Below are positions 19,624 through 26,463 of a DNA stretch of 35,947 nt, piece after piece (positions within the stretch are counted from its first letter, which is position 1; every line of letters begins with the position of its first letter). The position numbers and the translations under genes were made by a program. The notes beneath the pieces were generated by a model. The model worked only from the letters and a program-made list of their open reading frames with translations. It was not told the origin of the DNA and did not search any database. This stretch comes from Desulfobacteraceae bacterium (GTDB lineage: Bacteria; Desulfobacterota; Desulfobacteria; Desulfobacterales; JAABSP01): positions 1-35,947 of the forward strand of contig JAABTM010000017.1 in NCBI GenBank assembly GCA_011389855.1, given 5' to 3'.

Positions 19624-19743
19624 ATGTTAAGCCAAAAGATGACCGACGCACTCAACTACCAGATCAATAAGGTGAATTACGGGAATGAATATCCCAACAA
19701 GGCAAATTCAAGGGATCGCTCACCGCTGGCCGCGCGGAAGTGA
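19624..19743 (+). pseudogene. 5' remnant of a ferritin gene
   Basis: After AAGGAG at good distance, the frame reads MLSQKMTDALNYQINK, the exact start pattern of bacterial non-heme ferritins (MLSxKMxxALNxQIN). After 16 codons the similarity is lost, and the reading runs through junk to a TGA at 19741-19743 that lies inside the dispersed hairpin element starting at 19732. None of the iron-binding helices is present. It may still be translated as a 39-residue peptide, but it cannot store iron. Confidence 0.7.
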
Positions 19744-19795
19744 ACTCCCACGCTATTTTACCATGCCCTTACAGGACATTTTTAAGCAATTCCAG
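19732..19795 (-). repeat. Half copy of the dispersed hairpin element
   Basis: These 64 bases match the reverse complement of 24030-24093 with few differences, including the stretch ACAGGACATTTTTAAGCAAT. The other half with its inverted arm is missing here. A degenerate core GGGAATGAATATCCC at 19681-19695 may be a further piece. It lies between the ferritin remnant and the first SPFH gene. Confidence 0.85.
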
Positions 19796-19833
19796 CCCTG
19801 TGAGGAAGAACCCCAACCTAAAGGTGGCAAACC

Positions 19834-20823
19834 ATGGCTGTTTTTGGATTTCTCATCGGCATTGGCGCGTACTTCGTTTACCGGAGCATCGTCACGGGTT
19901 TTTACACCGTCTCCCCAAACGAGCGGGCGGTCATCACCGTCTTCGGCAAGGCCCGGCGGCTGGAGATGGGCGGGTCCACGGCGAAGGATTCGGCCCTGAG
20001 CGAGGAGGAAAAGGAGCGCTACGATTATCCCCTGTTGAAGCCGATCCCGCCGGGCGGCCCTTACTTCAAATGGCCCTGGATGAAGGTCCACAAGGTGGAC
20101 ATCCAGACCCAGGCCCTGGACCTTACCTGGGATCCCACCAAAGCCCAGGAGACCATCGAAGCGGTGACCAAGGACAACCTGACCATCGGCGTGGACGGGC
20201 AGATCCGGTTCCGGGTCAGTGAAAACAACCTGTATCCGTATCTCTTCGGGGTCCGGAGCCCCCTGGAGCACGTGATGGGCTTTTTCATCTCGGTATTGCG
20301 GGAGCGGATCGCCAATTTCACCGATCCCAAAGGGTCCCAGCTCATCAAGGAAGCGGATATGGGCGACGGCGCCGAGGGGAGCGCCCTGGACATCACCGAG
20401 GGCGTATCCATCAACGATCTCCGGAAAAACCTGCCCCTGTTGAACGATTTCATGGAGGAACAGTGCCGCAACACGCCGGAACGATACGGCATCGAACTGG
20501 ACGCGGCCCTGATCACCGAAATCGATCCGCCCAGCGAGGTCGATTCGGCCCTGTCGTCCATCAACTCCACCCGGAACCAGGTGGCCGCCGACATCTCCAC
20601 GGCCCGGGCCGACGCGGAGCAGCAGATCACCATGAGCAACCGGGCCGTGGAGATCGCCTCAAACAACGCCCATGCCGAAGTGGCGCCCCTCAGCGAGCTG
20701 GCCCGAACCCTGATGGAAGTCAAACAGGAAGGCGGGTCGGCCGCCCTCAAAGCCTACGTCCGGAACATGCAGGTGCCGCTGTTGGGGCGAGCCAGCCGGG
20801 TCGTGAAGACATCCAACGCATAG
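19834..20823 (+). CDS. SPFH/Band 7 membrane protein (first of a pair)
   Basis: This 329-residue protein has one N-terminal membrane segment (VFGFLIGIGAYFVYRSIV) followed by an SPFH domain: FYTVSPNERAVITVFGKARR opens it, then GGPYFKWPWMKVHKVDIQTQ and the block VTKDNLTIGVDGQIRFRVSE. The C-terminal part (about 235-300) is a helical segment rich in Ala, Glu and Gln (QVAADISTARADAEQQI) that oligomerises as in HflK, stomatin and flotillin. These proteins form membrane-bound ring or cage assemblies that organise lipids or control proteases. A second SPFH gene follows after 34 bp, giving an HflK/HflC-like arrangement, although neither protein is a plain HflK or HflC. Confidence 0.88.
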   Translation: MAVFGFLIGIGAYFVYRSIVTGFYTVSPNERAVITVFGKARRLEMGGSTAKDSALSEEEKERYDYPLLKPIPPGGPYFKWPWMKVHKVDIQTQALDLTWDPTKAQETIEAVTKDNLTIGVDGQIRFRVSENNLYPYLFGVRSPLEHVMGFFISVLRERIANFTDPKGSQLIKEADMGDGAEGSALDITEGVSINDLRKNLPLLNDFMEEQCRNTPERYGIELDAALITEIDPPSEVDSALSSINSTRNQVAADISTARADAEQQITMSNRAVEIASNNAHAEVAPLSELARTLMEVKQEGGSAALKAYVRNMQVPLLGRASRVVKTSNA

Positions 20824-23984: not shown

Positions 23985-24093
23985 GCGCGGGAATGAATTC
24001 CCACGCTATTATTCGTCGTCCCTACGGGACTGGAATTGCTTAAAAATGTCCTGTAGGGACATCACAAAATAGCGTGGGAGTTTACTCCCGCGC
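23985..24093. mobile_element. MITE-like dispersed hairpin element, full copy
   Basis: This 109-bp element has 26-bp terminal inverted repeats (23985-24010 and 24068-24093) with four differences; each arm is itself a small palindrome (GGGAATGAATTCCC type). Inside lies a second inverted pair, GTCCCTAC ... GTAGGGAC. A half copy is at 19732-19795. It carries no gene. The right end includes the lipA stop codon and the last codons of the gene. It resembles a non-autonomous element or a large REP; no transposase of matching ends is in the window. Confidence 0.8.
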
Positions 24094-24981
24094 TCCTCTC
24101 CCCCGAGCCCCCTTAAACAATCGCTTCGCCTCATAAGAACTCCGCACAAACGGCCCGCTGGCCACCTCTTCAAAGCCGATTTTCAATGCAACAGCCCGCC
24201 ATTCCTCGAATGCTTCGGGCGTCACATAGCGATCCACCGGCAGATGTTCTTTGGAAGGCTGGAGATACTGCCCCAGCGTCAGCAGCCGGCAGCCTGTGGC
24301 GTGGATGTCTTCCAGGGTCTCCCGGATCTCGGCGTCGGTCTCCCCCAGTCCCAGCATCAAGCCGGATTTGGCCGGGATGTCCGGCGTCATCTCACCCACC
24401 CGGCGCAGCAGCTCCAGCGACCGGTCGTAGACGGCCTGGGGCCGGACCGTGTCATACAGGCGCGGCACGGTCTCCACGTTGTGGTTGAGGACGTCGGGCC
24501 GGGCGTCCAGCACGGTTTTCAGGGAGTCGGCGTCTCCCTGGAAATCGGGGATCAGCACCTCCACCCGGGCCTCGGGAATCTGTTCCCGGATCGCGTTAAT
24601 CGTCCCGGCGAACAGGCCCGCGCCGCCGTCGTCCAGGTCGTCGCGGGTGACGGAAGTGACCACCACGTACCGGAGGTTCATCCGGGCCGACGCCTCCGCC
24701 ACCCGGCGGGGTTCCCCGGGGTCCGGCGGTCCGCAGGCGCCGTGGGTCACGTTGCAGAACCGGCAGTTGCGGGTACACTGGTCCCCCAGGATCAGGAAGG
24801 TCGCCGTCCGCTTGGAGAAGCACTCGAACTGGTTGGGGCAGTGGGCTTCCTGGCAGACGGTATGAAGCCGTCCGTCCCGGATGAGGGCCCGCACCTGTTC
24901 GTATTCCGGCGCGGTGGGCAGTTTTCGGGTAAGCCATTTGGGTTTTCTGGGGCGGGCGGGTCGTTTTGTGGGATCATTCAT
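24082..24981 (-). CDS. lipA: Lipoyl synthase
   Basis: LipA is a radical-SAM enzyme that inserts two sulfur atoms into protein-bound octanoyl chains to make lipoate for 2-oxoacid dehydrogenases and the glycine cleavage system. The 299-residue protein has the auxiliary cluster motif C43-x4-C48-x5-C54 (CQEAHCPNQFEC), the radical-SAM motif C69-x3-C73-x2-C76 (CTRNCRFC), and the C-terminal RSSY serine that binds the auxiliary cluster. After RSSYEAKRLF the C-terminus runs on as KGARGRGARE, partly coded by the dispersed hairpin element, which also supplies the TAA. The gene follows lipB by 9 bp. Confidence 0.97.
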   Translation of the reverse strand: MNDPTKRPARPRKPKWLTRKLPTAPEYEQVRALIRDGRLHTVCQEAHCPNQFECFSKRTATFLILGDQCTRNCRFCNVTHGACGPPDPGEPRRVAEASARMNLRYVVVTSVTRDDLDDGGAGLFAGTINAIREQIPEARVEVLIPDFQGDADSLKTVLDARPDVLNHNVETVPRLYDTVRPQAVYDRSLELLRRVGEMTPDIPAKSGLMLGLGETDAEIRETLEDIHATGCRLLTLGQYLQPSKEHLPVDRYVTPEAFEEWRAVALKIGFEEVASGPFVRSSYEAKRLFKGARGRGARE

Positions 24982-26439: not shown

Positions 26440-26463
26440 CGCGTGAATTCCCACGCGGTTTTT
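26440..26463 (+). terminator. Terminator after ppiB, related to the dispersed hairpin
   Basis: CGCGTG-AATTCC-CACGCG forms a 6-bp GC-rich stem and is followed by G and five T, directly after the ppiB stop (26437-26439). The core GAATTCCCACGC is identical to a part of the dispersed hairpin arm at 23995-24007, so the terminator may derive from that element. Confidence 0.7.

Follow-up and report, generated by a model that had tools for sequence, protein, structure and literature searches.

The hairpin element at positions 23,985–24,093 of the window (the whole 35,947-nucleotide stretch of DNA analyzed here) is, to judge from its sequence and that of its relatives, probably a non-autonomous mobile repeat of the REP-doublet (REPIN/BIME) type, the unit of which is the two-hairpin motif known as Acido-Lenti-1 (RF01687). 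Copies of the element are concentrated at the 3' ends of genes and, in several cases, provide the stop codon of the neighboring gene.

The Element and Its Repeat Unit

The element was found where the preliminary description had placed it, and its sequence is an inverted pair. The genome copies and aligned cores define the core element (23,985–24,093, no strand assigned) as an inverted doublet of two-hairpin units, consisting of a left unit on the forward strand (23,986–24,031; 41.1 bits, E = 7.9e-7), a right unit on the reverse strand (24,047–24,092; 31.4 bits, E = 3.3e-4) and, between the two model matches, an AT-rich spacer (24,032–24,046, also without strand). Both arms match the 46-nucleotide RF01687 model over its full length, through the hairpin, the CUA-spacer, and the second hairpin; the score of the left unit lies above the gathering score of 37 and that of the right unit below it. 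In each arm, the hairpin CGCGGGARTGAAYTCCCACG is followed by CTAY (RTAG on the opposite strand), a short spacer, and the second hairpin GTCCCTACRGGAC, so that the unit comprises a GC-rich hairpin with an RTAG head on one strand, a spacer of about 12 nucleotides, and a small second hairpin. The head, which varies between GTAG and ATAG among copies, immediately precedes CGTGGGAGTTCACTCCCGCG in the aligned cores, and the unit has, as GTAG REPs do, a GTAG-type head and a GC-rich palindrome with a loop of 2–4 bases.

The folds of 40 distinct cores from four genomes were compared, with left and right arms scored separately. Pairing within an arm's own hairpin is retained in 97.5% of the cells for left arms and 97.8% for right arms, and compensatory changes are seen at 3 pairs in left arms and at 4 in right arms. 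Pairing between the arms falls to 75% in genome G021, in which the two arms carry different stems. The retention of the individual arm folds while arm-to-arm pairing decays indicates that, as in REPs, conservation is of the unit, and that the long hairpin forms because two self-folding units pair; on the same grounds, treating the arms as mere terminal inverted repeats was found to be insufficient.

Copies in This and Related Genomes

A DNA search of the genome of origin (5.26 Mb in 569 contigs) produced 87 HSPs, including self-complementary ones, which merge to about 42 copies of the element. Most of these are inverted pairs and about 15 are single arms, and the high copy number and frequent inverted doublets typical of REPINs are thus both present. 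Of the 94 matches to the RF01687 model across the genome, 38 score above 37 bits, the gathering threshold; the 94 include a second unit family, CCTGGGGTTGAAACCCCAGGCTATATGCCGTTGCCGCTCCGCGGCATT. Among 291 genomes of the order, only 4 contain the core pattern, two of the four being from the same genus, and the named carriers among the relatives are Desulfobacteraceae MAGs.

Interrupted copies occur in the genome. In one (L034:3984–4131, G000:C186), a different miniature element, which has the ends GACCTTGATCATCGTTTCGGCCA and TGGCCGAAACGATGATCAAGGC and itself carries a unit of the second RF01687 family, divides the copy, so that a mobile repeat lies within a mobile repeat. Another (L044:827–1054, G000:C552) is interrupted by ~230 bp of unrelated AT-rich DNA that shows possible traces of inverted ends.

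The window holds a second copy of the element, which the preliminary description had presented as another gene end closed by an arm. The copy is real: it is a truncated composite on the forward strand (19,668–19,801), identified by its DNA match, that consists of an outer arm (TAAGGTGAATTACGG...) and one degenerate unit with no RF01687 match at E ≤ 1. The ferritin reading frame (19,624–19,743, forward strand) does terminate in the arm with CGG AAG TGA, giving the ending LAARK, but this is not a natural 3' end, as the composite has interrupted the gene at about codon 16. The element therefore strikes gene bodies too. The remainder of the ferritin gene was not found ahead of the next gene, at 19,834. 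The hairpin that follows ppiB (26,440–26,457, forward strand) had been taken for a relative of the element, a proposal that does not survive the ortholog, terminator, and RF01687 checks: it gives no RF01687 match at E ≤ 1, shares only about 13 nucleotides with an arm, is absent after the ppiB gene (87% identical) of the same-genus genome G001, and looks like an ordinary terminator lying outside the family.

The conserved RNA-like fold with its compensatory changes, the sites just beyond stop codons (see below), and the score of one arm as a weak terminator might be viewed as signs of a genuine small RNA or a regulatory RNA of the 3'-untranslated region that selection retains at the ends of genes because of its function as RNA. 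Such an RNA would not be expected to occur dozens of times, in almost identical form, at sites that are not orthologous, to be so patchily present among the genomes of the order (4/291), to include truncated, gene-disrupting copies such as that at 19,668–19,801, or to be associated with transposase genes, and we regard this origin as highly improbable. A mobile origin does not, however, exclude an effect at the RNA level.

The Composite Form

Many copies form part of a composite of 205–220 bp with ends TWAGGYGAATTRC and terminal repeats GGYGAATT. At 12 of 16 composite end pairs, the 3 bp on either side are the same (in most cases TAA or TTA, with TGA and CAA also represented); it should be noted that this result covers the composite form and not core-only copies such as that at lipA. 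The orthologous intergenic DNA of G001 is too diverged for target duplications of core-only copies to be read. For the composite form, duplications of this kind suggest that the enzyme is of the DDE type and not a RAYT. Groups of IS5-like DDE insertion sequences and their MITEs use TNA targets. The composite resembles the MITEs of DDE insertion sequences in having short inverted repeats at its termini and TNA duplications of 3 bp but differs from them in that the two transposase families searched gave no partner with its ends, PF01609 being represented by one gene that lacks such ends and PF13586 by none.

If the whole composite were the mobile entity, the element would be a DDE-type MITE in which the REP-like core is a passenger, and core-only copies such as that at lipA would be truncations. 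This would account for the terminal inverted repeats and for the identical flanks, including TGA and CAA, as well as for the presence of similar ends around a second, different hairpin pair. Many copies, however, stop at the base of the hairpin without an outer arm, G021 copies and single-unit copies occur without the composite, the PF01609 and PF13586 searches yielded no transposase with matching ends, and the units are associated with RAYT genes; it is consequently an unlikely description of the element as a whole, and a mobile REP doublet is preferred.

The different hairpin pair (CCTTGGGTTGAAACCCCAGG) is held by a family of sister composites (L222, L227, L228, and L229; G000:C111, C393, C500, and C531) of about 270–280 bp that have comparable ends and are likewise flanked by duplications of 3 bp, and resembles the repeats adjoining the RAYT at C102. 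There are also core-less composites (L239, L240, and L077; G000:C543, C86, and C248:43836) in which the outer arms are left and the core has been lost between short repeats, TCCCG or CCGCGCGG; these could have arisen by slippage or by precise excision.

Position Relative to Genes

Gene context was determined in contig stretches, from which a gene caller based on hexamers was trained (coding fraction 0.85). Among 79 element sides, 50 face the 3' end of a gene, as compared with 26 (33%) expected on a length-weighted basis from element-free intergenic regions (binomial p = 2.6e-8, in which the two sides of a copy are not independent). The enrichment at gene 3' ends that had been proposed from the window is thus supported by these counts. 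Overlap with the gene, or a distance of ≤15 bp from it, is found for 27 of the 50 3' sides versus 5 of the 29 5' sides. The same lean toward 3' ends is observed in G001 (15 versus 8) and in G021 (18 versus 12); in G021 none of the stops lies inside the element and most are 3–40 bp outside it.

Origin of the Stop Codons

The lipA gene (24,082–24,981, reverse strand), for which related genomes have LipA matches that are as much as 70% identical, overlaps the element at its 3' end. Its tail reads AAG GGG GCT CGG GGG AGA GGA GCG CGG GAG TAA, in which the last three codons and the stop (GCG CGG GAG TAA; 24,082–24,093, reverse strand) are arm sequence within the right unit, so that the earlier observation on lipA is confirmed by the sequence and the gene call. 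In 29 relatives, LipA tails vary freely beyond RSSYxA, which makes the exchange of a few terminal codons a plausible event at lipA. A close ortholog was sought in the sister genome G001, which has only copies that are 53–54% identical and unusable for comparison of the tails. The closest G001 LipA is 54% identical versus 60–70% for most LipA matches in the wider order, which may reflect either replacement of lipA or a missing contig.

More direct information comes from a comparison of six element-abutting genes, together with ppiB, with their counterparts in G001. None of the six G001 orthologs has the element at the corresponding place. Immediately before the stop, the CdaR/YbbR protein has the tail NQAAAESSPPAARE here and KPAVSETPVNR in G001, the DUF362 protein FFKAIAARE here and FFKTQTS in G001, the LysM protein GGKQAARE here and NGRSR in G001, and the product of the L053 gene ALTTR here and AL in G001. 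The LptE gene ends in TTTTTAG, made by the end of the composite, as opposed to TTTTTAA in G001. At DctP, the TAG is common to both genomes and the element starts just after it, indicating that this stop is ancestral. Because the element-free orthologs end within a few codons, the stops of several genes truly derive from the element, as had been suggested for lipA. Insertion of the composite into TAA, or into the TTA of T-TAG, leaves TAA followed by GG, or T-TAG-G, so that a stop codon is restored; the LptE stop fits an insertion of this kind.

It had also been proposed that the element inserts in one set orientation and frame, as a cassette dedicated to providing stop codons and terminators. 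The same arm frame, CGG GAG/AAG TRA, with tails ARE or ARK, does close five genes as well as what is left of the ferritin gene, but a second frame is used by one gene, which ends in SSLRD, and a third by one gene that runs on; other frames thus account for 2 of 8 cases here and for all three cases in G001, where the first frame is not used (0/3). By our own arithmetic, at least 6 of 11 cases in one frame would occur with a chance of about 0.12, and the frame preference is at most a mild bias. All frames close inside the element, and insertion near any gene end therefore yields a stop. With regard to orientation, genes enter either the left or the right arm, and there is therefore no fixed orientation; because the arms are inverted, every gene reads its arm from the outside in, which makes the apparent uniformity trivial. 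The ancestral DctP stop and the G021 stops, never inside the element, also argue against a dedicated cassette, which we consider scarcely tenable.

Association with RAYT Genes

The genome encodes three Y1 transposases, each adjoining its own hairpin repeats. These RAYTs were considered as direct partners of the element and rejected, their flanking repeats being related to its unit but different from it. A close variant of the CCTGGGGTTGAAACCCCAGGCTATATGCCGTTGCCGCTCCGCGGCATT family is present on both sides of the RAYT at C416, in the same orientation and with 27.7 bits each, which is below the gathering threshold. Relatives of the C416 RAYT were found at ten loci in nine other genomes, among 395 searched in the phylum, and RF01687 matches (E ≤ 0.012) are present at 6 of these 10 foreign loci, with the nearest match 21–164 bp from the gene; control DNA from seven RAYT-carrying genomes (126.6 kb) contains no RF01687 match at E ≤ 0.1. 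At two more of the ten loci, L273 and L278, a hairpin-CTA-spacer-hairpin plan can be discerned by eye, with no full match to the model. A plasmid-borne RAYT of Persicobacter (Bacteroidota) has an RF01687 match of 35.7 bits about 75 bp upstream, and a plasmid-borne RAYT of Bernardetia has no RF01687 match nearby. At L160:1396–2052 (G001:C164), a RAYT is flanked by GTAG-headed hairpins, GCCGGGGATTCATTCCCGGCC, with an arm-like plan and a different sequence.

A link to transposases of the TnpA-REP type, raised in the preliminary description, therefore holds in that the unit family flanks RAYT genes, but no RAYT flanked by the exact unit of the element was found in this genome (a draft of 95% completeness), G001, G021, or G026. 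The MITE-like character attributed to the element is supported in the sense that it is probably a mobile miniature element.

Discussion

In the mechanism that we envisage, a RAYT (Y1/HUH) would recognize the folded, single-stranded unit and spread it. Insertions within genes would mostly be purged, and the survivors would be intergenic, especially at or just beyond stop codons. At gene ends, the arm's own stops would close the reading frame and the hairpin would become a structure of the 3'-untranslated region, while restoration of the stop upon insertion of the composite into TAA or T-TAG may provide a target-site reason for its landing on stop codons.

Several features of the element are known from other systems. 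RAYTs flanked by inverted REPs have been reported (PMC2817692), as have REPs that lie directly after genes and REPs with termini from which genes obtain TAG stops (PMC3733652). The element resembles GTAG REPs, REPIN/BIME doublets, and RAYT-associated repeats (PMC2817692, PMC3116915, PMC3733652) in its RTAG head, GC-rich short-loop palindrome, occurrence as inverted pairs and single units, and location at gene 3' ends. It differs from GTAG REPs in that its unit has two hairpins and, in many copies, an ATAG head, and in that the stops that it provides are mostly TAA or TGA in the arm as opposed to the TAG of the head. TIRtrons and double-palindromic TIRs at RAYT-like genes (PMC3733652) likewise have repeats of two neighboring hairpins, located beside Y1 transposases; these were described from other taxa, and their likeness to the element lies in this plan.

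Acido-Lenti-1 is listed in Rfam as an sRNA; Weinberg et al. 2010 (PMC2864571) described it from Acidobacteria and Lentisphaerae and considered it to be probably a noncoding RNA, and a more recent report suggests that it regulates neighboring genes (PMC13298647). The same full-length 46-nucleotide unit is present here in high copy number, frequently as inverted doublets, and RAYT genes have related units beside them. No link of Acido-Lenti-1 to RAYTs or REPs was found in the passages on it in the literature accessible to the search; most subscription journals lay outside it, and earlier recognition is possible. REPs that supply stops are already known in kind, and what looks to be new is Acido-Lenti-1 as a transposition repeat. 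We incline to the broader view that Acido-Lenti-1 is the REP-unit hairpin recognized by a clade of RAYTs across phyla, that its doublets are here carried also in a TNA-targeting miniature transposon, and that stop codons act as self-restoring landing sites.

Public genome annotations that label Acido-Lenti-1 as a small RNA would then need to be re-read as marking mobile DNA. Because units and transposases adjoin in several genomes, the choice of repeats by RAYTs becomes testable, and the genes compared here provide an ortholog-checked case of a mobile repeat that rewrites the tails and stop codons of genes.
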